From Moraxella sp. K1664 (GTDB taxonomy: Bacteria; Pseudomonadota; Gammaproteobacteria; Pseudomonadales; Moraxellaceae), in the NCBI RefSeq assembly GCF_039693965.1, contig NZ_CP155576.1:1736001-1800000 (forward strand): a stretch of 64,000 bases of DNA, written 5' to 3'. The notes under the pieces are model-generated. The model was not told where the DNA came from. It saw nothing but the letters and a program-made list of their open reading frames with translations, and ran no database searches. Shown here piece after piece: positions 13,683 to 46,861 of this stretch. The stretch's first letter is position 1. Each line of letters starts with the position of its first letter. The position numbers and the translations under genes are program-made.

Positions 13683-13694
13683 ATTGAATTAAAA

Positions 13695-13705
13695 TAAGGG
13701 CGGTA
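13695..13705 (+). terminator. Left half of a terminator palindrome split by IS copy 1
   Basis: AAAATAAGGGC lies here, and the matching GCCCTTATTTTT is on the far side of the IS at 15262-15272. Before insertion the two halves would have formed a bidirectional terminator between convergent genes (12336 gene and sspB). Confidence 0.65.
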
Positions 13706-13748
13706 GTTATATGAACCGACCCCCAAATCTTAGACATAAGATTAAAGG

Positions 13749-14630
13749 TTAGGTTGTTGCAAGTGGTTGTATTAACCCTAATTGGACTAAGTTTCTGTAC
13801 TTAACAGGACTTAGTCCTTTTAATTTGCTCTTTATTCTATCATGATTGTAGTAGTGTATGTACTCATCAATCACTTGTTTAAGTTCATCTGTTGATGTAA
13901 ATGTGGTTGTCTCATAAAATATCTCTTGTTTTAGCGTACCAAAGAAGCTCTCTATCACAGCATTATCCAAACAATTGCCTTTTCTTGACATGCTTTGGGT
14001 TAAGCCTTGTTCTTTTAGGGTTTGTTGATACTGGTGCATTTGATAGTGCCAGCCTTGGTCTGAATGAATGATGGGTTTGTCATCCATCTTTTCTTGGCTT
14101 AGCTTGGATAGGGCATCATTTAACATCTCTTTGACCAACTCATACGTTGGTCTGTCCTTCATCGTATAACTGACAATCTCACCATTAAACAAGTCGATGA
14201 TGGGCGATAGGTAGAGTTTTCTTTGAATGACACTGCCATCATTTGCCTTGTCTTGTACTTTAAACTCGGTGATGTCTGTTGCCCACTTTTGATTGGGTTT
14301 GTCTGCTTTAAAGTCTCTTTTGAGTATATTGTCCTGAATGGTATCTTTGCCCATTGTGCCTTTGTAAGTATTAAACTTACGTTGACGACGAACCAATGCT
14401 TTGAGTCCAAGTTTAGCCATCAGTCGTTGCACTCGTTTATGATTAATGACCATGCCTTTTTGGGCAAGCTGATTGTTAAGCTCTGATGTGATTCTACGAT
14501 AACCATACCTGCCCTTGTGTTGGTGGTAGATGTGGTTAATGTGTTCTTTTAAGTCAAGGTCTTTGTCAGGCTTTGTACTTTGACGAATGTGGTAATAAAA
14601 CACACTTCTTGGCAAGTTTGACACTGCCAA
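13749..14630 (-). CDS. IS150-type transposase OrfB, copy 1
   Basis: DDE integrase-core transposase (293 aa from a TTG). The catalytic triad is visible as WATDITEF (Asp), IHSDQGWHY (Asp) and NAVIESFFGTLKQE (Glu). The N-terminal HTH_21-like region has HKGRYGYRRI. The frame is open upstream through the slippery site at 14735-14729 (A AAA AAG on the minus strand). The active enzyme is therefore most likely an OrfAB fusion of about 486 residues rather than a separately initiated protein. Confidence 0.95.
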   Translation of the reverse strand: MAVSNLPRSVFYYHIRQSTKPDKDLDLKEHINHIYHQHKGRYGYRRITSELNNQLAQKGMVINHKRVQRLMAKLGLKALVRRQRKFNTYKGTMGKDTIQDNILKRDFKADKPNQKWATDITEFKVQDKANDGSVIQRKLYLSPIIDLFNGEIVSYTMKDRPTYELVKEMLNDALSKLSQEKMDDKPIIHSDQGWHYQMHQYQQTLKEQGLTQSMSRKGNCLDNAVIESFFGTLKQEIFYETTTFTSTDELKQVIDEYIHYYNHDRIKSKLKGLSPVKYRNLVQLGLIQPLATT

Positions 14631-14671
14631 TAAGTCAGCAAGTTTGTGCTTATGCCTTAATTCTTGGATGA

Positions 14672-15208
14672 TCAGGACTTGTTCTTTGTTTGTACTGATT
14701 GTTCCTTTTGACGAATTAAGGCATCTAGCTTTTTTAGATAGTCATTCTCTGCTCTAAGATAGGCAAGTTCATCAAGCAAATCATCCACACTTTTTTCGTG
14801 GTCTTGTTTGGTTTTCCAAGTTGATTTGGTTTTATTAGCGTTGTGTTTGTTTGACATTGCTTTTTTGCCTTTGGGTTTGGGTATTAGTCCCATTATACCA
14901 AAGGCTTGGTAGGACTTTAACCAAGTTGACAGTAAAGAAGGTTGTGGCAGATTAAGCTCTATGGCAAGTTGTGTAAGCGATTTGCCCTGTTGTATGGCTT
15001 GAACGGCATTAAGCTTAAAATCTGTGTCATAGACAGCCTTTGTGTGTCGTCTTTTTATGCCATCAATGCCATGTGCTTGATAGAGTTTAACCCATAGCTC
15101 TACGGTTGTGTGGTTTAGATTAAAGTGTTTGGCGGTTTGTTTGTAGCCATGATGATTAAGATAATACCCAATCACAGACAGTTTAAAGTCGGTTGTGTAT
15201 TTTGCCAT
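14672..15208 (-). CDS. IS150-type OrfA, copy 1
   Basis: 178-aa DNA-binding protein, starting at ATG 15208 (MAKYTTDFKLSVIGYYL). Two helix-turn-helix units are visible, around residues 10-50 and 60-110, followed by a lysine-rich linker and a leucine-zipper-like C-terminus (DLLDELAYLRAENDYLKKL). The reading frame contains A AAA AAG near its end, where ribosomes can slip -1 into the orfB frame. Confidence 0.93.
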   Translation of the reverse strand: MAKYTTDFKLSVIGYYLNHHGYKQTAKHFNLNHTTVELWVKLYQAHGIDGIKRRHTKAVYDTDFKLNAVQAIQQGKSLTQLAIELNLPQPSLLSTWLKSYQAFGIMGLIPKPKGKKAMSNKHNANKTKSTWKTKQDHEKSVDDLLDELAYLRAENDYLKKLDALIRQKEQSVQTKNKS

Positions 15209-15300
15209 AAAAAGCACCCCAAAGGTTAGTGTGTCTAACTTTTGGGGTGCGGTTCAATTTTGCCCTTATTTTTAAGTCGTCTTTAATTTGTTAAATGACT

Positions 15301-15720
15301 TTATACAAATTTTAAATGCCCGCCTTTTTTGGGTGGTTCGTCATCGCCGTCATCGTCAGTATCGTCTATGTCATCAGGGTCGTCAGGTGGGGTGTAGCCG
15401 TCATATTCGCTGGGGTCAAAGAAAAAGCCTTCGCTGGGATCTTCTTTGGCATAAATCCCTACCACTGCCTGCATGGGTATCCAGATGTCTTTTGAGACCC
15501 CGCCAAACCGCCCTTGAAATGATAAGCCGTCATTGTCAATCAAAAGATTATTGGTGGCTTGGTAAGATATGGCAAGCACCAATTTGCCGTCTTGGGCGTA
15601 TTCGGTGGGGGCGAGTAGCTCAGGGTGGGTGGCATCTGTCATGAGATAGGGGGTAAAGCCGTTGTCTGTTAGCCACTCATGCATGGCACGGACGAAGTAG
15701 GGGCGTTTTGGGGTAAGCAT
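15301..15720 (-). CDS. sspB: ClpXP protease specificity-enhancing factor SspB
   Basis: Adaptor that binds ssrA-tagged proteins and delivers them to ClpXP. It is 139 residues. The N-terminal domain MLTPKRPYFVRAMHEWLTDN, with FGGVSKDIWIPMQAVVGIYA, is the tag-binding fold. An acidic disordered tail (DDPDDIDDTDDDGDDE) ends in GGHLKFV, matching the short C-terminal ClpX-binding module. It lies 48 nt downstream of sspA in the conserved petABC-sspAB order. Its terminator region has been interrupted by IS copy 1. Confidence 0.95.
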   Translation of the reverse strand: MLTPKRPYFVRAMHEWLTDNGFTPYLMTDATHPELLAPTEYAQDGKLVLAISYQATNNLLIDNDGLSFQGRFGGVSKDIWIPMQAVVGIYAKEDPSEGFFFDPSEYDGYTPPDDPDDIDDTDDDGDDEPPKKGGHLKFV

Positions 15721-15768
15721 GATTATGTCCTTGTTATTGGTTAAAGTAAATTGATGAATGTTAAATTA

Positions 15769-16413
15769 TTAAAAATCATCATCGCTATAAACAGCAGGGG
15801 TGATGAGTGTCTTTTGAAAACTCGCTCTTGCCGATAGGCGTGCTTGATATGCCAGTAGTGGTTTGCACAGTTTGGCGGGTAAATGAATGCCTAGTATTGG
15901 TAAACGGTGCAAAAGTGGCAATAATAACACATCACACAGCCCAAATTCATCTTGCATAAAATAGTCATGACGAGCAAATAGGGGCGAGAGCGTGATGAGT
16001 GAATCGGTCAAGGTTTTTTTGGCATGAGTCGCTTCTGCTGGGTTAAAGCTATCGGGATGAGTCATCAAAATCCGCCCAAGCGAGAGCCAGTCTTGACGCA
16101 GTCGCCAAGCCAACTGACGCACCTTTGCCCGCTCTTTGGGGGTGGGTGGCAGTAGCTTATTGGCACCGTGCCGCTCTTCTAGGTATTCAAAAATCACCAT
16201 CAGCTCATACAATGCCAAATCCCGCCCCACAAGTATAGGCAAGGTGTTATAGGGATTTAGCTCGGCAAGATATTCGGGTCGCTCATCAGGCAGGTAGGCA
16301 AATTGATGATTCACGCCCTTTTCTTCTAGCAAAAACCGCACCACATGGCTGTCATAGCCATCGTCACCATAGAGTAGGAACTGGGTGGGTAAAAGATGAG
16401 AAAAATCTGCCAT
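15769..16413 (-). CDS. sspA: Stringent starvation protein A
   Basis: GST-fold protein that associates with RNA polymerase and affects stress and stationary-phase transcription in other Proteobacteria. The frame opens at a TTG at 16452, but ATG at 16413 is preferred (214 aa, MADFSHLLPTQFLLYGDDGY). The N-terminal thioredoxin-like domain has LLEEKGVNHQFAYLP and NPYNTLPILVGRDLALYEL, and the helical C-terminal domain follows. A terminator-like hairpin separates it from petC. Identification is good by context and sequence. Confidence 0.92.
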   Translation of the reverse strand: MADFSHLLPTQFLLYGDDGYDSHVVRFLLEEKGVNHQFAYLPDERPEYLAELNPYNTLPILVGRDLALYELMVIFEYLEERHGANKLLPPTPKERAKVRQLAWRLRQDWLSLGRILMTHPDSFNPAEATHAKKTLTDSLITLSPLFARHDYFMQDEFGLCDVLLLPLLHRLPILGIHLPAKLCKPLLAYQARLSARASFQKTLITPAVYSDDDF

Positions 16414-16485
16414 GATATGAATGAGTCTGTTTTTGGGTGTTAAGTGTAACAAAAATTTTGGTAAAAGTGTGTAAATTTTGTCAAT

Positions 16486-16514
16486 AAAAAAGACCGATGT
16501 GTATCGGTCTTTTT
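16486..16514 (-). terminator. Terminator between petC and sspA
   Basis: AAAAAGACCGAT / ATCGGTCTTTTT with a 5-nt loop, 14 nt past the petC stop. It has T-tracts on both strands. Confidence 0.85.
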
Positions 16515-16527
16515 GGTCGGTGCTGGC

Positions 16528-17247
16528 TTATTTAACGTCTTTCCAGAATTCTTTGTTAAGTAGGTATACTGGAATGAGTAGCACAAGCAAGAACAGTAGC
16601 ACGAATGCACCATAGATTTTACGCTGATGACGGACAGGCTCTGCCATCCATGCCATGAAGTTCACTAGGTCGCCCACACGAGCTTCATACTCTTCTTTGC
16701 CAAGCTCTTTTTGCATGTTGTGTAGCACATGGGGCATGGCAGCATTGGCAAGCACTAGGTTGTTAGCACCCCAAGGACGGCTTGGGTCTTCGTAGAATGA
16801 CAGTAGGTAGGTGTATACCCAGTCATCGCCACGCAGACGAGTCACTAATGACAAATCTGGTGGTGCAGCACCAAACCATAGAGCCTGAGTATCAAGGTCA
16901 ATTTCAGCGGTCACGTGGTCACCGATTTGGTCGGTGGTTACCATGAGATATTTTTCCATGAGCTCTGGTGGGATTTCTAGGTCTTGGGCGATGCGTGAAT
17001 GACGCACATACTGGGCTGAGTGACAGCCCACGCAGTAGTTCATGAACGTTTGGGCACCACGTTGTAGCGAGCCTTTATTGGTTAGGTCAATGGGGGCTTT
17101 GCTACATTCTAGGGTGACTTTGGTACCATCGGCTTCGGTGAACTCGCCACAACCATGACCGCCTGCTGCTAGGGCAGATGACGATGCCATCATGCCACTT
17201 GCCAGTAGGAGACCAGCACCAAGCGATTTTAGAGTAAATGCTTTCAT
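16528..17247 (-). CDS. petC: Cytochrome c1 of the bc1 complex
   Basis: Haem c subunit of ubiquinol-cytochrome c reductase. It passes electrons from the Rieske protein to a c-type cytochrome. Start at ATG 17247 (239 aa), which overlaps the petB stop by one base. A signal peptide ends near ALA-A28, and the haem site is CVGCH at residues 72-76. The C-terminal anchor is IYGAFVLLFLLVLLIPVYLL. The preceding reading frame to 17349 is antecedent petB sequence and not part of the gene. Confidence 0.96.
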   Translation of the reverse strand: MKAFTLKSLGAGLLLASGMMASSSALAAGGHGCGEFTEADGTKVTLECSKAPIDLTNKGSLQRGAQTFMNYCVGCHSAQYVRHSRIAQDLEIPPELMEKYLMVTTDQIGDHVTAEIDLDTQALWFGAAPPDLSLVTRLRGDDWVYTYLLSFYEDPSRPWGANNLVLANAAMPHVLHNMQKELGKEEYEARVGDLVNFMAWMAEPVRHQRKIYGAFVLLFLLVLLIPVYLLNKEFWKDVK

Positions 17248-18488
17248 TAGTGACCTCCTCCTGTGACACGTTCGGGTGGTTGCTTGCACGTCTCCATGGT
17301 GGTATAGAACGGCATGAGAATGAAGTACAAGAAGTATAAAATGGTACAAATACGAGCAACAAGCGTACCTGTTGGTGTAGAAGATACCCCACCAAGATAG
17401 CCTAAGATTAGAAAGCTCACCACAAAGATGGCCAATGCAATCTTAGACAAAATACCTTTGTAGCGGATGGATTTTACAGGTGAGCGGTCAAGCCACGGCA
17501 TGACAAACAAGATGGCAATCGCACCAAACATCACAATCACACCAGGTAGGGCAGAGCCGAACATGGATGGTGTGGCACGAAGCATGGCATAAAATGGCAT
17601 GTAGTACCAAACAGGAGCGATGTGAGCGGGTGTTTTTAGAGCGTTGGCAACTTCAAAGTTGGGTTTTTCTAGGAAATAACCACCACCTTCTGGGGCGAAG
17701 AATACCACCGCAAAGAAACACATAAAGAACACCACAATACCAACCATGTCGTGTACGGTGTAGTAAGGATGGAAAGGTACGCCATCTAGTGGTACGCCAT
17801 TTTTGTCTTTGAGTTTCTTAATTTCGATACCATCTGGGTTGTTAGAGCCGACATGGTGCAAGGCAACTAAGTGCATAAATACCAAGCCAACCAATACCAA
17901 AGGAATTGCCACAACATGCAGGGCAAAGAAACGGTTTAGGGTAATGCCTGAGATGATGTAGTCGCCTTTGACCCACTCAGCCAAACCGTCACCGATAAAA
18001 GGAATGGCGGCAGGTAGGTTTAGAATCACCTGAGCACCCCAAAATGACATGTTGCCCCAAGGCAGTAGATAGCCAAAGAAACCTTCTGCCATGAGACACA
18101 GATAAATCGCCATGCCGATAATCCACACCAATTCACGGGGCTTTTTATAGGAGCCATACATCAGACCACGGAACATGTGTAGATAGACGACCACGAAGAA
18201 AGCGGATGCCCCTGTGGAGTGCATGTAGCGAATGAGCCAACCGCCTTTGACATCACGCATGATGTATTCAAGTGAAGCAAATGCTCCTTCGGCACTGGGG
18301 TTAAACATCATGGTTAGCCAAATACCTGTCACCAATTGGTTAACAAGTACGACCATGGACAATACGCCAAAGAAATACCAAAAGTTAAAGTTCTTTGGTG
18401 CGTAGTATTTGGACATATGGTATTCATAAGTCTCTGTCGCAGGAAAGCGAGCATCAACCCAGCCCATAAATTTCTTAGCGATACTCAT
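17247..18488 (-). CDS. petB: Cytochrome b of the bc1 complex
   Basis: Membrane core subunit of complex III carrying haems bL and bH and the quinone sites. ATG at 18488 with a GGGAGG site is chosen over a TTG at 18503, giving 413 aa. Landmarks in order: HSTGASAFFVVVYLHMFRG, GYLLPWGNMSFWGAQVI, the haem-ligand helix FFALHVVAIPLVLVGLVFMH, and the quinol-site PEWY equivalent, here PVWYYMPFYAMLR. About eight or nine membrane helices are visible. It starts two bases downstream of the petA stop. Confidence 0.97.
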   Translation of the reverse strand: MSIAKKFMGWVDARFPATETYEYHMSKYYAPKNFNFWYFFGVLSMVVLVNQLVTGIWLTMMFNPSAEGAFASLEYIMRDVKGGWLIRYMHSTGASAFFVVVYLHMFRGLMYGSYKKPRELVWIIGMAIYLCLMAEGFFGYLLPWGNMSFWGAQVILNLPAAIPFIGDGLAEWVKGDYIISGITLNRFFALHVVAIPLVLVGLVFMHLVALHHVGSNNPDGIEIKKLKDKNGVPLDGVPFHPYYTVHDMVGIVVFFMCFFAVVFFAPEGGGYFLEKPNFEVANALKTPAHIAPVWYYMPFYAMLRATPSMFGSALPGVIVMFGAIAILFVMPWLDRSPVKSIRYKGILSKIALAIFVVSFLILGYLGGVSSTPTGTLVARICTILYFLYFILMPFYTTMETCKQPPERVTGGGH

Positions 18489-18489
18489 G

Positions 18490-19074
18490 TTATGCCTCCC
18501 CAACGGTCAAGATGGTGTCTTCAATCTTGTAGATAGGTACAGGTAGGTTCAAAGGTGCAGGCATGCTACTATAAACACGACCAGCTAAGTCGTACATAGA
18601 ACCATGACAGGGGCAAAAGAAACCGCCCATCCAGTCAGCACCACCTAAGTCCGCCGCACCAACTTCGGGTCGGAATATGGGGGCACAACCTAAATGCGTA
18701 CACACGCCCTCAACAACCAATATCTCAGGCTGAATAGAACGTGTTTCGTTTTTGCAGTTGTCAGGCTGTACAGACCCGTTAGACTCAGGGTCGGCAAGCT
18801 TCGGAGCTACCTTGCTTAGGTTGGCAAGCATATCTTCGGTACGTTTGACAACAAAGATAGGTTTGCCACGGTATTTTAACGTAATCATCTGCCCATTTTC
18901 GATGCTGGCGATGTCAGTGACGACAGCGGCACCTGCGGCTTCCGCTTTGGCACTTGGATACCAAGAACGCACAAATGGGGTGGCTATTGCACCGACACCA
19001 ACTGCACCAATGGCGGCGGTGGATGCAATCAGGACTCTACGGCGTTTAACATTCACGCCTTCGGCATGGCTCAT
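18490..19074 (-). CDS. petA: Rieske iron-sulfur protein of the bc1 complex
   Basis: [2Fe-2S] subunit of complex III. It is 194 residues. The N-terminus has KRRRVLIASTAAIGAVGVGA, a Tat-type signal anchor. Cluster ligands are CTHLGC (Cys125, His127; Cys130 in the disulfide pair) and CPCHG (Cys154, Cys156 disulfide, His157). It heads petABC on the minus strand. An AGGAAG site precedes ATG 19074. Confidence 0.97.
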   Translation of the reverse strand: MSHAEGVNVKRRRVLIASTAAIGAVGVGAIATPFVRSWYPSAKAEAAGAAVVTDIASIENGQMITLKYRGKPIFVVKRTEDMLANLSKVAPKLADPESNGSVQPDNCKNETRSIQPEILVVEGVCTHLGCAPIFRPEVGAADLGGADWMGGFFCPCHGSMYDLAGRVYSSMPAPLNLPVPIYKIEDTILTVGEA

Positions 19075-19479: not shown

Positions 19480-19508
19480 AAAAAACTCTCGAAGTTCGAG
19501 AGTTTTTT
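19480..19508 (-). terminator. Terminator of rplM-rpsI
   Basis: Stem AAAAAACTCTCGAA / TTCGAGAGTTTTTT, 14 nt past the rpsI stop, with T-tracts in both directions. Confidence 0.88.
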
Positions 19509-19521
19509 GAAAACGCAAAAA

Positions 19522-19908: not shown

Positions 19909-19918
19909 GTGTATCTCC

Positions 19919-20658: not shown

Positions 20659-20671
20659 TGTTTTTCATAAT

Positions 20672-23684: not shown

Positions 23685-23689
23685 ATATT

Positions 23690-23757
23690 AAAAAACCGTT
23701 CGTGGTGAGCCTGTCGAACCACAACGGTTTTCTTTGTACTCTTCGACAAGCTCAGAT
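23690..23757. repeat. REP-like palindromes and terminator 3' of ychJ
   Basis: AAAACCGTT ... AACGGTTTT encloses GTGGTGAGCCTGTCGAACCAC (near 23702-23722), and TTCGACAAGCTC follows at 23742-23753. The two TGTCGAA/TTCGACA units are in inverted orientation. This CTGAGCTTGTCGAA-type wording is a widespread extragenic palindrome. The first stem can serve as the ppk1-ychJ terminator. Confidence 0.65.
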
Positions 23758-23812
23758 ACCATGATACCCCACCTAAGTCAATGGTTTTTTAAGTATCTGG
23801 TATCTAGTATCT
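23754..23812. repeat. Imperfect inverted repeat at the 3' side of the IS110 transposase
   Basis: AGATACCATGATACC (23754-23768) and GGTATCTAGTATCT (23799-23812) are near-complementary. AGATACCAT recurs at 24849-24857 upstream of the transposase. This may mark the right end of the IS110 element. Confidence 0.45.
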
Positions 23813-23818
23813 TACAAA

Positions 23819-24802
23819 CTAACTTAAAGATACTTGTTGCTCAAAGGATGTTTGGGTTTTGATAACACCAAAACAGATATGTACCAATTTACGCATACAA
23901 GCACATAAGGCTTGCATTTTGGTTTTACCGTTTTGTTGTAATCGTTCATAAAATGCCTTAATGGTGCTATTATAACGAATGGCACTCATTGCAGACATAT
24001 ACAGCTTAGCACGCAAAGAGACTTGCCCTTGTTTGGACAGTTTGGTTGCTCCCTTAAAGACACCTGACTGTCTTTGTTTGGGTATTAAGCCTAAAAACGA
24101 AGCCATCTGTGAGGCTTTTTTAAATTGTTTGGTATGTATTAAGCATACCACTTCTTTGGCAATAACAGAACCAATGCCGTCAATGGTTTCAAGTAAGGTT
24201 TTGTCTTGCTTTAAACTTGGTTGTTTGTCAACAAAGTCATCAATGTCTTTGGTGAGTTTGGCAATTTCCTCTTGAAGGACATTGATGACTGTTTGCATGG
24301 ATGCTTTAACCAAATCGGGCAGATTGGGTGATAAGAGCAACTCTTGTCGGTTTTGCTCTCGTTGCAAATCTTCTTTGAGTGCTTCTAAGCGAGCCAATAG
24401 AGCTTTTAGCTGTTTGGCTTCAATGCTAGGTGCTACCCAAACCTCAGGCTTGTGGCTATAACCATACCTTGATAAAATAATGCTGTCTTTTTTATCAGTT
24501 TTATGGATTACCCCCAAACTGTCTGCAAATTTGCGGACATAGTTAGGATTGACAATGCTTTGCTTGATATTATTATCATCAAGAAACTCACTTAGGTGTT
24601 CATGATAAACCCCTGTTGCTTCTAGGATGATGTGTAGCTCATCAAGATGATTGCTGACATTGGTTTTTAACCAAGCAAGCAGTAAATCAAAGCCTGCTTT
24701 GTTGTTGTTAAAAACCTTGGTTTTTACTTTATTTGTGCTTGGGTTTATAAATGCAACATCAAACTTTGCTTTGCTGATGTCTATGCCAATATAGTGTATC
24801 AT
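23819..24802 (-). CDS. IS110-family transposase (DEDD type)
   Basis: Recombinase with a RuvC-like N-terminal domain and a C-terminal Transposase_20 domain with a catalytic serine region. ATG at 24802 is chosen (327 aa, MIHYIGIDISKAKFDVAFI); a GTG at 24847 would extend into the structured leader. Acidic positions are visible in YIGIDISK, ILEATGVYHE and VIHKTDKKDSIILSRYG. The C-terminal signature is TIDGIGSVIAKEV, FLGLIPKQRQSGVFKGATKL and SLRAKLYMSAMSA. The gene looks intact, so the element may be active. Confidence 0.93.
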   Translation of the reverse strand: MIHYIGIDISKAKFDVAFINPSTNKVKTKVFNNNKAGFDLLLAWLKTNVSNHLDELHIILEATGVYHEHLSEFLDDNNIKQSIVNPNYVRKFADSLGVIHKTDKKDSIILSRYGYSHKPEVWVAPSIEAKQLKALLARLEALKEDLQREQNRQELLLSPNLPDLVKASMQTVINVLQEEIAKLTKDIDDFVDKQPSLKQDKTLLETIDGIGSVIAKEVVCLIHTKQFKKASQMASFLGLIPKQRQSGVFKGATKLSKQGQVSLRAKLYMSAMSAIRYNSTIKAFYERLQQNGKTKMQALCACMRKLVHICFGVIKTQTSFEQQVSLS

Positions 24803-24869
24803 CTGTCTCTTGCCTTGTTTATGCAGTGTCTGTTTTAATAAACGCACTTAGATACCATTCAGAGTTAAG

Positions 24870-25000
24870 ATGACAAGCAAAGGACACCATCTGAGCACCA
24901 GTGTTAAGACACTAAGGGCGAACCCGTGTTCTCTTTGCTTGTATAACCCAACAACATTCTAGCAGATAATCTAGGTTTGGTGTTGGGTTGATACAAGGGT
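24870..25000 (-). ncRNA. Candidate IS110 bridge RNA
   Basis: On the minus strand two strong structures occur in series just upstream of the transposase. The first stem-loop, 24996-24939, pairs TTGTAT and AACCCAAC with GTTGGGTT and ATACAA around an internal loop. The second, 24938-24877, pairs GCAAAG with CTTTGC and ACAC with GTGT around an inner AGTGT-ctta-ACACT hairpin. Two internal-loop domains in the left-end non-coding region match the published IS110 bridge RNA design (target-binding and donor-binding loops). The guide bases were not assigned. Confidence 0.6.
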
Positions 25001-25035
25001 GAACGGAAAACTAGTTTTGCAGGAAGTTTATAACA

Positions 25036-36338: not shown

Positions 36339-36411
36339 TTAAAAGTCAAAGGCATGGTAAATAAGGGTAAGAGATGAACCGACCCCCAAATCTTAGACAT
36401 AAGATTAAAGG

Positions 36412-37293
36412 TTAGGTTGTTGCAAGTGGTTGTATTAACCCTAATTGGACTAAGTTTCTGTACTTAACAGGACTTAGTCCTTTTAATTTGCTCTTTATTC
36501 TATCATGATTGTAGTAGTGTATGTACTCATCAATCACTTGTTTAAGTTCATCTGTTGATGTAAATGTGGTTGTCTCATAAAATATCTCTTGTTTTAGCGT
36601 ACCAAAGAAGCTCTCTATCACAGCATTATCCAAACAATTGCCTTTTCTTGACATGCTTTGGGTTAAGCCTTGTTCTTTTAGGGTTTGTTGATACTGGTGC
36701 ATTTGATAGTGCCAGCCTTGGTCTGAATGAATGATGGGTTTGTCATCCATCTTTTCTTGGCTTAGCTTGGATAGGGCATCATTTAACATCTCTTTGACCA
36801 ACTCATACGTTGGTCTGTCCTTCATCGTATAACTGACAATCTCACCATTAAACAAGTCGATGATGGGCGATAGGTAGAGTTTTCTTTGAATGACACTGCC
36901 ATCATTTGCCTTGTCTTGTACTTTAAACTCGGTGATGTCTGTTGCCCACTTTTGATTGGGTTTGTCTGCTTTAAAGTCTCTTTTGAGTATATTGTCCTGA
37001 ATGGTATCTTTGCCCATTGTGCCTTTGTAAGTATTAAACTTACGTTGACGACGAACCAATGCTTTGAGTCCAAGTTTAGCCATCAGTCGTTGCACTCGTT
37101 TATGATTAATGACCATGCCTTTTTGGGCAAGCTGATTGTTAAGCTCTGATGTGATTCTACGATAACCATACCTGCCCTTGTGTTGGTGGTAGATGTGGTT
37201 AATGTGTTCTTTTAAGTCAAGGTCTTTGTCAGGCTTTGTACTTTGACGAATGTGGTAATAAAACACACTTCTTGGCAAGTTTGACACTGCCAA
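36412..37293 (-). CDS. IS150-type transposase OrfB, copy 2
   Basis: Protein identical to OrfB of copy 1 (293 aa, same DDE residues), with the slippery heptamer at 37398-37392. Intact. Confidence 0.95.
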   Translation of the reverse strand: MAVSNLPRSVFYYHIRQSTKPDKDLDLKEHINHIYHQHKGRYGYRRITSELNNQLAQKGMVINHKRVQRLMAKLGLKALVRRQRKFNTYKGTMGKDTIQDNILKRDFKADKPNQKWATDITEFKVQDKANDGSVIQRKLYLSPIIDLFNGEIVSYTMKDRPTYELVKEMLNDALSKLSQEKMDDKPIIHSDQGWHYQMHQYQQTLKEQGLTQSMSRKGNCLDNAVIESFFGTLKQEIFYETTTFTSTDELKQVIDEYIHYYNHDRIKSKLKGLSPVKYRNLVQLGLIQPLATT

Positions 37294-37334
37294 TAAGTCA
37301 GCAAGTTTGTGCTTATGCCTTAATTCTTGGATGA

Positions 37335-37871
37335 TCAGGACTTGTTCTTTGTTTGTACTGATTGTTCCTTTTGACGAATTAAGGCATCTAGCTTTTTTAG
37401 ATAGTCATTCTCTGCTCTAAGATAGGCAAGTTCATCAAGCAAATCATCCACACTTTTTTCGTGGTCTTGTTTGGTTTTCCAAGTTGATTTGGTTTTATTA
37501 GCGTTGTGTTTGTTTGACATTGCTTTTTTGCCTTTGGGTTTGGGTATTAGTCCCATTATACCAAAGGCTTGGTAGGACTTTAACCAAGTTGACAGTAAAG
37601 AAGGTTGTGGCAGATTAAGCTCTATGGCAAGTTGTGTAAGCGATTTGCCCTGTTGTATGGCTTGAACGGCATTAAGCTTAAAATCTGTGTCATAGACAGC
37701 CTTTGTGTGTCGTCTTTTTATGCCATCAATGCCATGTGCTTGATAGAGTTTAACCCATAGCTCTACGGTTGTGTGGTTTAGATTAAAGTGTTTGGCGGTT
37801 TGTTTGTAGCCATGATGATTAAGATAATACCCAATCACAGACAGTTTAAAGTCGGTTGTGTATTTTGCCAT
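37335..37871 (-). CDS. IS150-type OrfA, copy 2
   Basis: Protein identical to OrfA of copy 1 (178 aa from ATG 37871). Intact. Confidence 0.93.
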   Translation of the reverse strand: MAKYTTDFKLSVIGYYLNHHGYKQTAKHFNLNHTTVELWVKLYQAHGIDGIKRRHTKAVYDTDFKLNAVQAIQQGKSLTQLAIELNLPQPSLLSTWLKSYQAFGIMGLIPKPKGKKAMSNKHNANKTKSTWKTKQDHEKSVDDLLDELAYLRAENDYLKKLDALIRQKEQSVQTKNKS

Positions 37872-37941
37872 AAAAAGCACCCCAAAGGTTAGTGTGTCTA
37901 ACTTTTGGGGTGCGGTTCAGATTTGCCCTTATTTTTATTAT

Positions 37942-37970
37942 TTGACAAAAGTAAATTTATGTCTTAATAT
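37942..37970 (+). promoter_or_regulatory. Promoter of the toxin-antitoxin pair
   Basis: Consensus TTGACA (37942-37947), a 17-nt spacer and TAATAT (37965-37970), 24 nt before the toxin start. It is the best sigma-70 match I saw in the window. It lies just beyond the end of IS copy 2. Confidence 0.8.
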
Positions 37971-37993
37971 AGCCTAAACACGATATTGGATTC

Positions 37994-38368
37994 ATGATGT
38001 ATATTGTAGAAACGACTGATGAATTTGAATGCTGGTTTGATGAACAGCCCTTGCAGGTTCAAATGCGATTATTGGAAGCCTTTAAGTTATTAGAGCAATA
38101 CGGACACCGATTGGCTCGCCCTTATGCCGATACCTTATATGGCTCAAAATTTAGCAATATGAAAGAATTGCGTATCCAAATTGGGGGCGACCCTTATCGT
38201 GCCTTTTATGCGTTTGACCCCTTACGTCAAGCAATTGTGCTATGTGCAGGTAACAAAGTGGGTAATGAAAAGCAATTTTATAAACAAATGATACCGCTTG
38301 CTGATGAGCTTTACCAACAGCATTTGGATAAATTAACAAAACAGGAGAGTCCAAATGGCAACGCTTGA
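37994..38368 (+). CDS. HigB/RelE-type toxin of a type II toxin-antitoxin system
   Basis: 124 aa. Probable ribosome-dependent mRNA endonuclease of the RelE/HigB superfamily (phage Gp49-like). Motifs: WFDEQPLQVQMRLLEAFKLL, GHRLARPYADTLYGSKFSNMKELRIQ-type core, and DPYRAFYAFDPLRQAIVLCAGNK with the conserved Arg and strand pattern. ATG at 37994; a second ATG follows directly. The downstream antitoxin overlaps its last 14 bases. Toxin-first order matches HigBA. It lies between inverted IS copies, a likely mobile cargo. Confidence 0.88.
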   Translation: MMYIVETTDEFECWFDEQPLQVQMRLLEAFKLLEQYGHRLARPYADTLYGSKFSNMKELRIQIGGDPYRAFYAFDPLRQAIVLCAGNKVGNEKQFYKQMIPLADELYQQHLDKLTKQESPNGNA

Positions 38369-38654
38369 ACAATTATTAAATAAATTATCGCCAGAACAAC
38401 GAGCTGAAGTGGAGCGTAACGCCGAAGCGATGATTTTGGATTATCAACTTCATCAGTTGCGTGAAGAGTTGGAGCTGTCGCAAAAACAGCTTGCCGAAGC
38501 CATGGGCATTACCCAACCGACTTTATCCGCCATTGAAAATCGTGGGGCAGAGATTAAGCTGTCCACGCTAAAACGCTATGTGGAGACCATGGGCGGAAAA
38601 TTACGCATTGACGTAGAATTACCAACAGGTAAGCACGTTGGGTTTAATATTTGA
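38355..38654 (+). CDS. XRE-family (HigA-like) antitoxin
   Basis: 99 aa. The helix-turn-helix of the Cro/C1 type is in LREELELSQKQLAEAMGITQ-PTLSAIENRG (residues about 37-65). The following region (STLKRYVETMGGKLRIDVEL) is typical of antitoxins paired with Gp49-type toxins. AGGAG precedes ATG 38355, which is inside the toxin gene, so the two are translationally coupled. It probably neutralises the toxin and represses the promoter at 37942. Confidence 0.9.
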   Translation: MATLEQLLNKLSPEQRAEVERNAEAMILDYQLHQLREELELSQKQLAEAMGITQPTLSAIENRGAEIKLSTLKRYVETMGGKLRIDVELPTGKHVGFNI

Positions 38655-38737
38655 TAGCATTTAATCATAAAATAAGGGTAAGAGAGAGATGAACCGCACC
38701 CCAAAAGTTAGACACACTAACCTTTGGGGTGCTTTTT

Positions 38738-39274
38738 ATGGCAAAATACACAACCGACTTTAAACTGTCTGTGATTGGGTATTATCTTAATCATCATGGC
38801 TACAAACAAACCGCCAAACACTTTAATCTAAACCACACAACCGTAGAGCTATGGGTTAAACTCTATCAAGCACATGGCATTGATGGCATAAAAAGACGAC
38901 ACACAAAGGCTGTCTATGACACAGATTTTAAGCTTAATGCCGTTCAAGCCATACAACAGGGCAAATCGCTTACACAACTTGCCATAGAGCTTAATCTGCC
39001 ACAACCTTCTTTACTGTCAACTTGGTTAAAGTCCTACCAAGCCTTTGGTATAATGGGACTAATACCCAAACCCAAAGGCAAAAAAGCAATGTCAAACAAA
39101 CACAACGCTAATAAAACCAAATCAACTTGGAAAACCAAACAAGACCACGAAAAAAGTGTGGATGATTTGCTTGATGAACTTGCCTATCTTAGAGCAGAGA
39201 ATGACTATCTAAAAAAGCTAGATGCCTTAATTCGTCAAAAGGAACAATCAGTACAAACAAAGAACAAGTCCTGA
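38738..39274 (+). CDS. IS150-type OrfA, copy 3
   Basis: 178 aa from ATG 38738, identical in protein to the other copies. The slippery heptamer A AAA AAG is at 39211-39217. Confidence 0.93.
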   Translation: MAKYTTDFKLSVIGYYLNHHGYKQTAKHFNLNHTTVELWVKLYQAHGIDGIKRRHTKAVYDTDFKLNAVQAIQQGKSLTQLAIELNLPQPSLLSTWLKSYQAFGIMGLIPKPKGKKAMSNKHNANKTKSTWKTKQDHEKSVDDLLDELAYLRAENDYLKKLDALIRQKEQSVQTKNKS

Positions 39275-39315
39275 TCATCCAAGAATTAAGGCATAAGCAC
39301 AAACTTGCTGACTTA

Positions 39316-40197
39316 TTGGCAGTGTCAAACTTGCCAAGAAGTGTGTTTTATTACCACATTCGTCAAAGTACAAAGCCTGACAAAGACCTTGACTTAAAAG
39401 AACACATTAACCACATCTACCACCAACACAAGGGCAGGTATGGTTATCGTAGAATCACATCAGAGCTTAACAATCAGCTTGCCCAAAAAGGCATGGTCAT
39501 TAATCATAAACGAGTGCAACGACTGATGGCTAAACTTGGACTCAAAGCATTGGTTCGTCGTCAACGTAAGTTTAATACTTACAAAGGCACAATGGGCAAA
39601 GATACCATTCAGGACAATATACTCAAAAGAGACTTTAAAGCAGACAAACCCAATCAAAAGTGGGCAACAGACATCACAGAGTTTAAAGTACAAGACAAGG
39701 CAAATGATGGCAGTGTCATTCAAAGAAAACTCTACCTATCGCCCATCATCGACTTGTTTAATGGTGAGATTGTCAGTTATACGATGAAGGACAGACCAAC
39801 GTATGAGTTGGTCAAAGAGATGTTAAATGATGCCCTATCCAAGCTAAGCCAAGAAAAGATGGATGACAAACCCATCATTCATTCAGACCAAGGCTGGCAC
39901 TATCAAATGCACCAGTATCAACAAACCCTAAAAGAACAAGGCTTAACCCAAAGCATGTCAAGAAAAGGCAATTGTTTGGATAATGCTGTGATAGAGAGCT
40001 TCTTTGGTACGCTAAAACAAGAGATATTTTATGAGACAACCACATTTACATCAACAGATGAACTTAAACAAGTGATTGATGAGTACATACACTACTACAA
40101 TCATGATAGAATAAAGAGCAAATTAAAAGGACTAAGTCCTGTTAAGTACAGAAACTTAGTCCAATTAGGGTTAATACAACCACTTGCAACAACCTAA
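39316..40197 (+). CDS. IS150-type transposase OrfB, copy 3
   Basis: 293 aa, identical in protein to the other copies. The only base change noticed (39678) is silent (Thr). Confidence 0.95.
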   Translation: MAVSNLPRSVFYYHIRQSTKPDKDLDLKEHINHIYHQHKGRYGYRRITSELNNQLAQKGMVINHKRVQRLMAKLGLKALVRRQRKFNTYKGTMGKDTIQDNILKRDFKADKPNQKWATDITEFKVQDKANDGSVIQRKLYLSPIIDLFNGEIVSYTMKDRPTYELVKEMLNDALSKLSQEKMDDKPIIHSDQGWHYQMHQYQQTLKEQGLTQSMSRKGNCLDNAVIESFFGTLKQEIFYETTTFTSTDELKQVIDEYIHYYNHDRIKSKLKGLSPVKYRNLVQLGLIQPLATT

Positions 40198-40249
40198 CCT
40201 TTAATCTTATGTCTAAGATTTGGGGGTCGGTTCAAGATTGCCCTTATTT

Positions 40250-41239
40250 TTACTCCACCCGCTCCCCACAATACGGACAAAAGCATTTTTTATTTAAAGA
40301 CTTTTCTTTTTCATCAAGCTCTTTTTCTTTTGCCAATAGGCGTTTTTCTCGCAAAACTTGGGTTAGGATTTCTTGGCGGTTTTTGCGGTCTATTTTTAAT
40401 TCATCAGATAGGTTATTTATTTTATCATTGTCATGCAATTCAGTTGATGACAACGCCATAAATTCATCATAAAGCCGATATAGACTTGCCTGTTTTTGGC
40501 TTTCTAATTCACGGGTCAGTCCCGTTGCCAAAATACCTGCTGGCAAGGCGGCAAGCCCCACACCCAATATCGTGATAAACGCCCCCAAAAGTTTACCCAA
40601 AGGCGTAATGGGCGTAATATCGCCATAACCCACCGTTGTCAAGGTTACCACCGCCCACCACATCGCATGAGGGATTGAATTAAACTCATCAGGCTGGGTT
40701 TCATACTCCACCAAATAAATGCCACTTGCTGACAATATGATAAGAAGCATTAAAATAAATATCACCGCCCCAAATGAGCCACGCTCTTTTTGTAATACGG
40801 TGAGCAGTATCCGCAAAGAATCAAAATAACGGGTAAGTTTAAATAGCCTTAATAACCTAAATACCCGTAAAAAACGTAAATCAATGCCACTAATGCTTTG
40901 CAAAAATATCGGCACTATGGCAAGTAGGTCAATAATTGCCCCAAAACTTGTCGTCCATTTAAAACGGGTATGCCAAACTCTATCAATGTTCTTTTCGGCA
41001 ATGACCCAAAAACGAGCGATATATTCTATTCCAAATATAATCACAGAAAACCACTCAAACGCCCTAAAATAATCCTGATAAGGGTAATAAATGTTATCCA
41101 CAGATTCTAATATCACCGCTAGGGTATTTAATAAAATGAGCGTAATTAAAAATAAATCCAATATCTTGGCAGGCGATGCCAAAGGCGATGAATCATCGTG
41201 ATTTTCTAATAAAATGTATAATTTTTGGCGGATTGACAT
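40250..41239 (-). CDS. Voltage-gated potassium channel family protein
   Basis: Six-helix K+ channel of the inner membrane, 329 aa from ATG 41239. The S4 voltage-sensor helix is visible in LRFLRVFRLLRLFKLTRY (regularly spaced Arg/Lys). The pore carries the selectivity filter TLTTVGYGD. S5 and S6 flank it. The C-terminus is a charged coiled coil (about 250-315, KIDRKNRQEILTQVLREKR) ending in CFCPYCGERVE, a half zinc ribbon that is unusual for the family. It has no RCK domain, unlike E. coli Kch. It is convergent with the antitoxin gene across IS copy 3. Confidence 0.9.
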   Translation of the reverse strand: MSIRQKLYILLENHDDSSPLASPAKILDLFLITLILLNTLAVILESVDNIYYPYQDYFRAFEWFSVIIFGIEYIARFWVIAEKNIDRVWHTRFKWTTSFGAIIDLLAIVPIFLQSISGIDLRFLRVFRLLRLFKLTRYFDSLRILLTVLQKERGSFGAVIFILMLLIILSASGIYLVEYETQPDEFNSIPHAMWWAVVTLTTVGYGDITPITPLGKLLGAFITILGVGLAALPAGILATGLTRELESQKQASLYRLYDEFMALSSTELHDNDKINNLSDELKIDRKNRQEILTQVLREKRLLAKEKELDEKEKSLNKKCFCPYCGERVE

Positions 41240-41367
41240 GAGATAAAGCAAAAATAAGCAAGTGGCGATATTGTAACACAAAGGGCGATGTTGGGAGTTA
41301 TCTTTACCTTGAAATTATCCCCAAATTTAGCGATAATGTAACGCTAAATTTTGACAATAACAACACC

Positions 41368-43200: not shown

Positions 43201-44896
43201 TCAACCCAACAGACGTCCATTTCGCCTAAGAGAGTTATTACTTAGCCAAAAGCTTCTGTGGCTCATCGCATGGCTGTTAGGCATAGCGACAGTATTGTCG
43301 GTGCTGGGGCTGGTCATGCTCTCGGGGTGGTTTATCACGATGGCAGGCGTGGCAGGCGTGCTGGCGGTGGGGTCGCACGCCTTTAATTATCTTATGCCGT
43401 CCGCCATTATTCGTGGTTTTGCTATCGTGCGAACCTTTGCCCGTTATGGCGATTTGATGGTGTCGCACCATGCGGTGTTTGGGCTACTTCGTGATTTGCG
43501 AGTGAAGTTTTTTTCGCATTGGGCGAGATTGCCGTTATCGGTGCGACTGCAAAAGGGCGGTAGTAGCGAGACCATGCAAAGGCTGGTCAAGGACATTGAT
43601 ACGCTAGATGAGTTCCCATTGCGAGTGGTGTCGCCCTTTGTGGTGGCGGTCGTGGCGGTGGCGGTGCTGTCGCTCATGGTGTCTGTGATGATACCGACAG
43701 CGTGGATTATCGTGCTACACATGGGGCTGGCACTCATCATTGCGGTCATGACCCTATATAAAGGCGTGCAACTGGCACGGCGTGAGAGTGAGCTTTTGGT
43801 GCTACGCAAGAGCAAACTCATCAACACCTTGCCTGCCCTAACCGCTCTCATCACGTGGGGCAGATGGCAGGACAGCGTGCGGGAGCTTGGCGAGTATGAT
43901 GAGCGACATCATCAGCTGACGATGGCGACACTGCGAGTCAGACGTAACGCCCAAGCACTCATTCAGCTTATCATTGCGTTGGCGGTGGTGCTACTGCTAC
44001 TGATGGCAGGGCGGATATTTGAGCAGGGTATTTCCCCTTTTACGGTGGCAACGCTAAACGGTCATACTGCCCTAAATCCTGCCATGGTGCTTGCCTTGAC
44101 ACTTGGGGTGTTTGGGCTGATGGAGATAGTCTCGGCACTGGTGGGCGAGCCGTTGGCGTATGGTAGAAGTGTCAATGCCAAAGCACGCATTAATGAGCTG
44201 ATGAGTGCAGACAGCACGCCCCAAAAACAGCCGATAGATGACAATCCAACCCTTATCCTAAAAGACTTATCCATAAAAATGCCGTCTGCTATCATGAGCG
44301 TGGACGGTATCTGTGCCATGCTTACCCCAACTACGCCCACGCTCATCATGGGGGCGTCAGGGGCGGGCAAATCCACACTGCTTGCCACGCTGGCAGGGGA
44401 AGTGCCACGCATGAGTGGACAGATGGTGGTGCGGACTTCGGCTCTTCGTGATGTGGACATGGATAATGTGGATTTTGATAAGTCATTTGGCTTTTTGGGG
44501 CAAAACGTAGACATCTTTGACCAAAGCCTTGCCGATAACCTGCGACTGGGTAAGCCGTCAGCGAGTGATGATGAGCTGTGGGCGGTGCTTGATAAAGTGG
44601 GCTTGTCCGACTGGGCAAAGCACCAGCCCAAAGGACTAGATACGCCACTTGGCGAGTATGGCATGGCGATATCAGGCGGTCAAGGTCGGCGTGTGGCACT
44701 GGCTCGCTTGCTTCTATCACCCAAAAAGGTGCTGTTATTAGATGAGCCATTTGCAGGGCTAGATAGCACCACTCGCCATAAGGTGTGGCAGAGCCTAACC
44801 GATATGCAACAGGCAGGCGAGATTGGCGTGCTTGCCATTGCCACGCACCAAATATGGGACGAGATGGGCGATGTGAATGTGGTGCGTGTGGGATGA
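43193..44896 (+). CDS. cydC: ABC transporter subunit CydC
   Basis: Partner of CydD, 567 aa from ATG 43193 (AAAGGCGG site; the frame opens at 43163). Membrane domain (about 20-310), then ATPase with Walker A GASGAGKSTL, signature ISGGQGRRVALAR and Walker B VLLLDEPFAGLD. NHxHxL-like FARYGDLMVSHHAVF is typical of CydC. It overlaps cydD, so translation is coupled. Its terminator is split by IS copy 4. Confidence 0.92.
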   Translation: MANQPNRRPFRLRELLLSQKLLWLIAWLLGIATVLSVLGLVMLSGWFITMAGVAGVLAVGSHAFNYLMPSAIIRGFAIVRTFARYGDLMVSHHAVFGLLRDLRVKFFSHWARLPLSVRLQKGGSSETMQRLVKDIDTLDEFPLRVVSPFVVAVVAVAVLSLMVSVMIPTAWIIVLHMGLALIIAVMTLYKGVQLARRESELLVLRKSKLINTLPALTALITWGRWQDSVRELGEYDERHHQLTMATLRVRRNAQALIQLIIALAVVLLLLMAGRIFEQGISPFTVATLNGHTALNPAMVLALTLGVFGLMEIVSALVGEPLAYGRSVNAKARINELMSADSTPQKQPIDDNPTLILKDLSIKMPSAIMSVDGICAMLTPTTPTLIMGASGAGKSTLLATLAGEVPRMSGQMVVRTSALRDVDMDNVDFDKSFGFLGQNVDIFDQSLADNLRLGKPSASDDELWAVLDKVGLSDWAKHQPKGLDTPLGEYGMAISGGQGRRVALARLLLSPKKVLLLDEPFAGLDSTTRHKVWQSLTDMQQAGEIGVLAIATHQIWDEMGDVNVVRVG

Positions 44897-44996
44897 TTAA
44901 ACAGGGTGGTTTTAAATGGGATTTAACCATCAAAAAAGGGCAAGTCATTGAACCGCACCCCAAAAGTTAGACACACTAACCTTTGGGGTGCTTTTT

Positions 44997-45533
44997 ATGG
45001 CAAAATACACAACCGACTTTAAACTGTCTGTGATTGGGTATTATCTTAATCATCATGGCTACAAACAAACCGCCAAACACTTTAATCTAAACCACACAAC
45101 CGTAGAGCTATGGGTTAAACTCTATCAAGCACATGGCATTGATGGCATAAAAAGACGACACACAAAGGCTGTCTATGACACAGATTTTAAGCTTAATGCC
45201 GTTCAAGCCATACAACAGGGCAAATCGCTTACACAACTTGCCATAGAGCTTAATCTGCCACAACCTTCTTTACTGTCAACTTGGTTAAAGTCCTACCAAG
45301 CCTTTGGTATAATGGGACTAATACCCAAACCCAAAGGCAAAAAAGCAATGTCAAACAAACACAACGCTAATAAAACCAAATCAACTTGGAAAACCAAACA
45401 AGACCACGAAAAAAGTGTGGATGATTTGCTTGATGAACTTGCCTATCTTAGAGCAGAGAATGACTATCTAAAAAAGCTAGATGCCTTAATTCGTCAAAAG
45501 GAACAATCAGTACAAACAAAGAACAAGTCCTGA
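44997..45533 (+). CDS. IS150-type OrfA, copy 4
   Basis: 178 aa from ATG 44997, identical in protein to the other copies; slippery heptamer at 45470-45476. Confidence 0.93.
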   Translation: MAKYTTDFKLSVIGYYLNHHGYKQTAKHFNLNHTTVELWVKLYQAHGIDGIKRRHTKAVYDTDFKLNAVQAIQQGKSLTQLAIELNLPQPSLLSTWLKSYQAFGIMGLIPKPKGKKAMSNKHNANKTKSTWKTKQDHEKSVDDLLDELAYLRAENDYLKKLDALIRQKEQSVQTKNKS

Positions 45534-45574
45534 TCATCCAAGAATTAAGGCATAAGCACAAACTTGCTGACTTA

Positions 45575-46456
45575 TTGGCAGTGTCAAACTTGCCAAGAAG
45601 TGTGTTTTATTACCACATTCGTCAAAGTACAAAGCCTGACAAAGACCTTGACTTAAAAGAACACATTAACCACATCTACCACCAACACAAGGGCAGGTAT
45701 GGTTATCGTAGAATCACATCAGAGCTTAACAATCAGCTTGCCCAAAAAGGCATGGTCATTAATCATAAACGAGTGCAACGACTGATGGCTAAACTTGGAC
45801 TCAAAGCATTGGTTCGTCGTCAACGTAAGTTTAATACTTACAAAGGCACAATGGGCAAAGATACCATTCAGGACAATATACTCAAAAGAGACTTTAAAGC
45901 AGACAAACCCAATCAAAAGTGGGCAACAGACATCACCGAGTTTAAAGTACAAGACAAGGCAAATGATGGCAGTGTCATTCAAAGAAAACTCTACCTATCG
46001 CCCATCATCGACTTGTTTAATGGTGAGATTGTCAGTTATACGATGAAGGACAGACCAACGTATGAGTTGGTCAAAGAGATGTTAAATGATGCCCTATCCA
46101 AGCTAAGCCAAGAAAAGATGGATGACAAACCCATCATTCATTCAGACCAAGGCTGGCACTATCAAATGCACCAGTATCAACAAACCCTAAAAGAACAAGG
46201 CTTAACCCAAAGCATGTCAAGAAAAGGCAATTGTTTGGATAATGCTGTGATAGAGAGCTTCTTTGGTACGCTAAAACAAGAGATATTTTATGAGACAACC
46301 ACATTTACATCAACAGATGAACTTAAACAAGTGATTGATGAGTACATACACTACTACAATCATGATAGAATAAAGAGCAAATTAAAAGGACTAAGTCCTG
46401 TTAAGTACAGAAACTTAGTCCAATTAGGGTTAATACAACCACTTGCAACAACCTAA
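45575..46456 (+). CDS. IS150-type transposase OrfB, copy 4
   Basis: 293 aa, identical in protein to the other copies. Confidence 0.95.
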   Translation: MAVSNLPRSVFYYHIRQSTKPDKDLDLKEHINHIYHQHKGRYGYRRITSELNNQLAQKGMVINHKRVQRLMAKLGLKALVRRQRKFNTYKGTMGKDTIQDNILKRDFKADKPNQKWATDITEFKVQDKANDGSVIQRKLYLSPIIDLFNGEIVSYTMKDRPTYELVKEMLNDALSKLSQEKMDDKPIIHSDQGWHYQMHQYQQTLKEQGLTQSMSRKGNCLDNAVIESFFGTLKQEIFYETTTFTSTDELKQVIDEYIHYYNHDRIKSKLKGLSPVKYRNLVQLGLIQPLATT

Positions 46457-46493
46457 CCTTTAATCTTATGTCTAAGATTTGGGGGTCGGTTCA

Positions 46494-46861
46494 TATCTGC
46501 CCTTTTTGATTGTTTGATATAATCTTTAACGTCAAAATACACCAGTTGGTAGTAAAGTGCGTATTACGAACCAATCAGATTTTTCATTTAAAAGGTGGTG
46601 GCATGCACTTTGCCATATAAAAAATTACCCTGTTCTAACTTTGTGCGATTGATTTGCGAAGGGAAAATTGCAATCTGCCCTATAACCCAAAAATAATCAT
46701 TGAAAATCAATAAGTTGTAACTCTAAGTTGAGATTGAAGTAAGTCATTAAAAATACAAATTGATGTGATTGCGGTTAATTCACGATATAAACATTGTCCC
46801 CATTGTAACAACAAAAACAAAACCCTGTCATCAGACAGAGTTTTGTTTTGTGAGATTGTTT
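46494..46861. other. Gap between IS copy 4 and ccoG
   Basis: No credible gene. It holds the right half of the split palindrome, a degenerate GGGCAAATTG-type palindrome (46661-46680), and the ccoG terminator. The remainder is featureless AT-rich DNA. Confidence 0.6.
46812..46850 (-). terminator. Terminator of ccoG
   Basis: CAAAACCCTGTC / GACAGAGTTTTG hairpin with A- and T-tracts, 12 nt past the ccoG stop on the minus strand. Confidence 0.85.

Follow-up and report, generated by a model that had tools for sequence, protein, structure and literature searches.

The window analysed here is a stretch of 64,000 nucleotides (nt) from the genome of Moraxella sp. K1664 (contig NZ_CP155576.1, positions 1,736,001 to 1,800,000) that carries four copies of a 1545-bp insertion sequence (IS). 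A preliminary description had placed these copies at 13712, 36375, 38690 and 44949, each between the two halves of an inverted repeat, and the coordinates, the arm sequences and their complementarity were all found to be right. Copy 1 (13712..15256, transposase on the minus strand) lies between the plus-strand arms AAAATAAGGGC (13691..13701) and GCCCTTATTTT (15262..15272) of a split terminator-like palindrome. As judged from open reading frames (ORFs) and Pfam matches, it encodes on the minus strand OrfB, a DDE integrase-core transposase of 293 amino acids (aa) (13749..14630), and OrfA, a helix-turn-helix protein of 181 aa (14672..15217). The left inverted repeat of the element itself folds into a terminator-like hairpin (15209..15250, minus strand, with a 16-pair stem at 15214-15250) that is followed, reading inward, by TTTTT directly before the start of orfA. 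Copy 2 (36375..37919, minus strand) is flanked by the complementary arms AAATAAGGG (36359..36367) and CCCTTATTT (37926..37934), copy 3 (38690..40234, plus strand) by AAAATAAGGG (38669..38678) and CCCTTATTTT (40241..40250), and copy 4 (44949..46493, plus strand) by AAAAAGGGCA (44933..44942) and TGCCCTTTTT (46498..46507), all arms being given on the plus strand. At all four sites, A's stand outside the left arm of the palindrome and T's outside the right arm. By ORF calls, which instead of annotation supply the gene context throughout, the copies follow the 3' end of an ORF at a distance of 15-52 nt, and convergent ORFs surround three of the four, again as had been described. A target duplication of at least 3 bp is retained only by the copy at 38690 (AGA at 38687-38689 and 40235-40237).

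The ends of the element start with TGAACCG and its terminal inverted repeats have the form TG...CA. OrfB matched Pfam rve (6.8e-25), rve_2 and HTH_21, and OrfA matched HTH_28 (8.1e-23) and HTH_Tnp_1; between the two genes lies a putative A6G slippage heptamer, AAAAAAG, a feature of the IS150 group of the IS3 family. A6G has also been described for ISSau2 (PMC5771124). OrfB was 49-51% identical to plasmid-borne transposases of the 'IS150 family', which nest within the tree of its relatives. The helix-turn-helix orfA with an rve-type orfB, the TG...CA ends with 3-4 bp duplications, the heptamer and the kinship of OrfB to IS150 together place the element in the IS3 family, IS150 group. A hairpin with a nearby T-run was found at the left end of 27 of 56 relatives (the confident loci of the wide set described below) and at the right end of two. 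The left-end hairpin would block transcription entering from that side, guarding the transposase gene, and could stand in for half of the split host terminator; the orientation of the copies at 14 tandem sites gave no sign of selection for such a replacement.

The source genome (2.78 Mb, one contig, also labelled G000) was searched for further copies with two end patterns and a DNA search. The full census comprised 43 complete copies, named here by their position in the genome when outside the window, and one partial copy (519 bp, 90% alike). Forty copies are exactly 1545 bp long, 26 of them identical to the consensus and the others with at most two base differences; one is 1544 bp, and two (645944 and 2263150) are 1660 bp, with positions 363-611 replacing a 134-bp stretch of the normal element. 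A lone right end (1222568-1222587) and two weaker end matches (1401753-1401800) are perhaps remnants, short non-autonomous relatives or chance. Target duplications measured 3 bp in 17 of the full copies, 4 bp in nine, 6 bp in one and less than 3 bp in 16. An ORF 3' end faces the insertion site within 110 nt in 34 of the 43 copies, and at 11-55 nt in 33 of these. Nine copies fall inside ORFs, six of which are ORFs of 71-119 aa, some possibly not genes, and two of those in short ORFs (249461 and 1125430) still lie within 42 nt of an ORF 3' end. A few copies interrupt genes; those at 128317, 369177, 483167 and 1022778 appear to do so, the gene identities other than LysE being a reading of the sequence.

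A stem score of at least 11 was obtained at 27 of the 43 full copies compared to 1.8% of 40,000 points drawn at random. When the best hairpin was sought up to 65 nt on either side, its centre fell no more than 3 nt from the insertion in 21 of the 27 copies whose duplication measures at least 3 bp, and at 11 of 300 random points; together with the eight of 16 copies without such a duplication that lie within 4 nt, 29 of the 43 copies are found near the best local apex. The prospect raised earlier, that mapping every copy might place most of them in non-palindromic DNA, was thus not borne out. At the 22 sites with a measurable stem, the target duplication had its centre at -0.45 ± 1.5 nt relative to the dyad, and loops had a median of 6.5 nt, a measurement which detects dyads only within about 5 nt, the ±65 nt test being the fairer one. 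Duplications of 3-4 bp fall in or beside the loop. The stem sequence itself is free, as illustrated by AAAAAACAGCACAA, AAAAATAAGGCAT, AAAAACAAGCAC and AAAAAACAGGATAG. The proposal of GGGC-type palindromes had to be abandoned, as only 17 of the 43 copies have GGGC to their left together with GCCC to their right, and 15 apex hairpins lack this combination. It should be noted that many stems of the genome share AAAAAGGGC, and that arms taken from different sites reach a stem of at least 10 in 34% of pairs compared to 30 of 43 own pairs. This sharing makes the stem test within the genome less strong than it appears, a weakness that affects neither the apex test nor the empty sites nor the wide set of relatives.

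The base profile of the flanks showed A at -17..-13 in 63-86% of cases, at both IS ends, and G/C at about -10..-6. The combination of an A-tract, a T-tract and a stem of at least 10 was observed at 24 copies when 0.14 were expected, a 171-fold excess. Hairpins without tracts were not preferred (one copy observed and 1.3 expected, about 1,869 such clusters being present in a sample of 581 kb of DNA free of the IS), and A/T tracts without a strong stem accounted for nine copies, some of them recombinants, with 1.2 expected. Given the A/T geometry, an inner-arm complementarity of at least 8 was present in 75% of 28 occupied sites, compared to 9.5% of 4016 background positions and 13.6% of 903 background clusters. 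Among hairpins beside gene 3' ends with a stem of at least 10, the T-tract stood on the side expected to serve the adjoining gene in 28 of 29 occupied cases compared to 98 of 182 unoccupied ones, and 23 of the 29 carried tracts on both sides. From the side of the T-tract, the joint presence of tracts and stem and the complementarity of the arms, the target looks like an intrinsic terminator taken as a whole. Concerning the earlier suggestion that bidirectional terminators are targeted, the terminators stood, on the strength of the 43 mapped copies, the apex precision and the uninterrupted sites and relatives presented below. Bidirectionality as such was not shown, since a strict need for tracts on both sides was not significant (A-and-T to T-only 23:5 at occupied and 67:31 at unoccupied hairpins beside gene 3' ends, p = 0.23).

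Orthologous loci, about 92-95% alike, were compared in two close species, G005 and G002. Uninterrupted hairpins were found in both at the site of copy 1 and at the site of copy 4, the latter with one G fewer in the left arm in G005, and the site of copy 972822 is likewise an uninterrupted hairpin in G005. In G002, which is M. caprae-like, a related IS end (L244, G002:C44) lies in the same terminator as copy 972822, and this one terminator was probably hit twice, by the IS and by a relative. Because the stems differ between sites and the close species carry uninterrupted hairpins, the palindrome arms are target DNA that was there before the IS, which agrees with what had been suggested for the window. 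That the arms instead come as part of the IS, or that the IS makes them, drew no support; the variation of the arms from site to site speaks against this, the uninterrupted sites of related species and of E. coli (see below) refute it, and we give it practically no credence.

Missing duplications have been treated as traces of recombination or adjacent deletion, and insertions have also been tied to rearrangements (PMC11708052). The right flank of copy 4 shows small changes away from what a CAT duplication would leave, and some of the absent duplications may reflect decay. The opposite copies 179444 and 195064 (L032 and L033) have mismatched flanks of their own; when the flanks are exchanged, one pair gives a CTCT duplication and the 12-bp stem AAAAACACGGCT, and the converse pair gives an ATAT duplication and GGGCG/CGCCC between A and T tracts. 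These flanks record a probable inversion of about 15 kb. Among all copies this was the one clear reciprocal swap of flanks; the others were non-reciprocal and may be due to chance because many stems are alike.

In the genus, 21 other genomes were searched with the DNA of the IS, and 17 gave matches (E 0.001 or better), which in some consist of no more than short pieces. In other species of the genus, an A-run stood at the expected place in 52 of 65 distinct flanks of related ends, compared to a background of 16.6% taken from positions of the window's genome; the stems of these relatives are often C-rich (ACCGC, ACCCC), unlike GGGC. A wide set was drawn from an OrfB scan of species genomes, of which the best 80 of 348 confirmed stretches were kept. 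Six of the 80 loci had no room for the left end, and of the 74 with ends assigned, 18 failed the end criteria (L175 and L179 among them look like terminator loops by eye) and 56 were confident. A stem of at least 12 was formed by 29 of the 56 own arm pairs compared to 3.7% of mismatched pairs, and therefore the arms co-vary site by site. The hairpin apex was occupied by 27 of 47 non-Pseudomonas relatives (22 records), with both tracts in 22 of the 27. None of the nine Pseudomonas loci was at a hairpin apex, and most of them adjoin GGGAGCGGGCTTGCC-like palindromes, which we take to be repetitive extragenic palindromic (REP) sequences. In a quick tree, terminator users were spread over Pseudomonadota, Bacillota, Bacteroidota and Treponema. 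Nested among them were the plasmid sequences of IS150/ISKpn8, whose flanks, at two distinct sites next to hok-type genes or what is left of these, were not terminator-like by eye. Inner support in this tree is partly weak, and any direction of change in target habit drawn from it would be tentative. The terminator habit belongs to a broad IS150-group lineage and is not local to the window's IS.

ISEcB1 is a member of this lineage. Of 5,426 complete E. coli genomes, 91, including those of BL21 and REL606, matched it over 80% or more of the query. The REL606 copy is listed as incomplete (PMC7881107). In ten records examined from the top of the match lists, ISEcB1 lies between yfbM and nuoN. The site is the loop of the nuoN terminator, with a CATG duplication, and the hairpin is uninterrupted in K-12 and WCHEC020031. 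Of the three nuoN loci whose flanks were read (L214, L215 and L218), two show aaccgccgagcatg before the IS and catgtcggcggctttc after it, the left flank of L214 differing next to the IS. A second copy, behind fumB, lies within a palindrome and has a CCGA duplication; a plasmid copy and the BL21(RP) copy near ybcW were not in a hairpin. In Kluyvera genomosp. 3, where the copies are about 92% alike to ISEcB1, all four were at a terminator apex.

We consider it quite probable that this IS3-family, IS150-group element has an integration step that selects the apex of intrinsic-terminator palindromes, with a short loop, an A-tract before and a T-tract after. The IS would form a circular intermediate that is then integrated by the DDE transposase, as is usual in the IS3 family, and the transposase or the complex of the circular intermediate would capture the palindrome through the shape of the DNA. 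The likeliest captured form would be a hairpin or cruciform extruded from supercoiled DNA, AT-rich flanks being known to ease extrusion; the alternative would be DNA bent by the symmetric A-tracts. The strands would be joined across the loop, and both arms are for that reason retained. Such sites are common and just outside genes, so that the habit may serve as a safe haven, and the inward terminator-like hairpin at the left end of the IS may partly replace the one that is split. The circular intermediate and its integration by a DDE transposase are described as the IS3-family mode in PMC3219604. An extruded hairpin or a sharply bent palindrome as the captured form is consistent with the centring at the apex, with A/T tracts placed symmetrically at a constant spacing, and with stems that are free in sequence yet complementary.

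Several observations weigh against apex selection. Fourteen of the 43 copies, including six of the 27 with duplications, lie more than 4 nt from the best local hairpin apex (128317, 179444, 195064, 224203, 369177, 375510, 483167, 566909, 569224, 645944, 897133, 1022778, 2016850 and 2241770). Of those with a duplication, 128317 lies within a LysE-type exporter gene, 224203 is inserted into a diverged IS, 369177 lies close to the 3' end of a gene read as a metallo-hydrolase and 483167 falls in an open frame that matches no Pfam family; the other two are 375510 and 566909. As regards the others, 179444 and 195064 are the inversion pair, 569224 is, with 566909, an end of the moved composite described below, and 645944, 897133, 2016850 and 2241770 are still inserted between complementary arms (scores 15, 9, 10 and 9), but with a stronger hairpin elsewhere nearby. 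The 16 copies without a duplication of at least 3 bp count on the same side, a lack that recombination, decay or adjacent deletion can each cause. So do the 20 of 47 non-Pseudomonas relatives off the apex, including both confident Moraxella loci (L134 and L136), the partial non-independence of the 27 apex relatives, which stem from only 22 records, the hairpin loop at only two of four distinct ISEcB1 sites, and the unbiased orientation of the transposase relative to neighbouring genes (same direction in five of 14 tandem sites).

Other explanations account for part of these data. If insertion were random and selection alone kept the copies that landed just behind genes, the others being lost, the large share of sites with an ORF 3' end close by would be expected, as this is the safest place in a dense genome. 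Such selection leaves unexplained why insertions centre no more than 3 nt from the dyad, why the A-tracts stand at a constant distance and why the IS enters a terminator, an insertion that is itself potentially harmful; the copies moreover look young in view of the many identical to the consensus, although gene conversion could also give this identity, and we regard the explanation as very improbable. A stronger contender, still unlikely in our judgement, is that a sequence-like pattern of two facing A-tracts about 30 nt apart is read and that the stem is a mere correlate of terminators. The A signal at both ends is strong, copies 128317 and 375510 have facing A/T tracts with little stem, and tracts without a strong stem were in excess. 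Nevertheless, of the positions that have the A/T geometry, the occupied ones show inner-arm complementarity far more often, and the duplication of copy 483167 lies inside a short palindrome without tracts, though a stronger hairpin is present 52 nt away.

Capture could also be coupled to transcription, the integration complex recognising RNA polymerase that has paused at the terminator, its open bubble or the hairpin of the nascent RNA, as the placing of the T-tract on the acting side of the gene at nearly all occupied hairpins would suggest. Since most of these hairpins carry tracts on both sides and the insertion straddles the dyad without orientation bias, we rank this explanation with the A-tract pattern, as one we would not expect to hold. 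Recognition of DNA structure is rated ahead of both, from which the present results do not separate it firmly. A wider version of the structural reading is tentative and somewhat short of an even chance: a pan-bacterial IS150-group lineage would use terminators as a universal address, read as DNA hairpins or bent palindromes and not as sequence, would insert at the apex and would trade the host terminator for the one in its own left inverted repeat, the REP targeting in Pseudomonas being a derived or sister specialisation.

Some further arrangements were noted around the copies. At 36375-40234 of the window, the inverted copies 2 and 3 enclose 770 bp that carry two genes, one Gp49-like (HigB-type) and the other HTH_3 antitoxin-like. 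This 3860-bp unit is present twice in the genome with two differences, the second at 566909-570768, and resembles a composite transposon that has moved; its outer flanks at 566909 and 569224 hold two unlike reading frames, reading away, both with SALF near the start and without Pfam family. An exact 872-bp inverted repeat (2040276-2041147 and 2043003-2043874) brackets copy 2041413, and tandem 558-bp units lie at 757364-759637, near copy 755385. An IS110-type element (Pfam DEDD_Tnp_IS110) was found at 23696-25006 of the window and at six more places in the sampled stretches, seven copies in all, several of which by eye also lie within inverted repeats, some with A and T tracts. RNA-guided target choice has been reported for the IS110 family (PMC11208160, PMC11187229). 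Among repeats of at least 600 bp in the sampled DNA, this was the sole other dispersed IS, and as it is itself often in inverted repeats, it gave no neutral control for random insertion.

Target choice by DDE transposases is poorly understood, and dozens of natural insertions are available here at base-pair precision, with a relative, ISEcB1, in E. coli BL21 and REL606 that would allow the question to be tested. These insertions suggest a route to harmless mobile elements, for terminators are abundant and outside genes and may let an IS spread without breaking genes. Terminators, and hence read-through between convergent genes, would be shaped by the IS, and split hairpin arms record past chromosome inversions. 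In the open-access literature, to which the survey was confined (subscription papers and ISfinder notes being outside its scope), no report was found that ISEcB1 or any other IS3/IS150-group element targets terminators; the new part would be the target capture, and the terminator targeting of this lineage may be known in the literature beyond that scope.

With respect to known systems, ISEcB1 shares the lineage of the window's IS in the tree (L215) and occupies the loop of the nuoN terminator and a site behind fumB; it differs in occupying one to three places per genome, and two of its four distinct sites are not hairpin loops. Class C group II introns also use terminators as safe havens; these are RNA-based retroelements that insert after the terminator stem, beside it and not in the loop. 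IS1397 and ISKpn1, which we take to be members of the IS150 group, offer a parallel within the family. Both are IS3-family elements that insert into REP palindromic units, that is into palindromes outside genes, according to PMC1525189. The literature describes REP targeting for other elements too. Their target, however, is one repeated family of host palindromes, whereas the window's IS uses intrinsic terminators with free stems that vary within and between genomes, so that targeting of the REP type was rejected; the two habits are set apart here by their descriptions and not by their transposases. IS1272 and TnSha1, of the IS1182 family, are described as targeting hairpins, several of them confirmed terminators, without a rule for the stem sequence (PMC4923244, PMC5678879), as does the window's IS. 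According to the same sources, these elements of another family remove or replace the target hairpin wholly or partly and make no duplication. By contrast, the window's IS keeps both arms at most sites and duplicates 3-4 bp, with a duplication of at least 3 bp in 27 of the 43 copies, which distinguishes its insertion into the loop from hairpin replacement of the IS1272 type.

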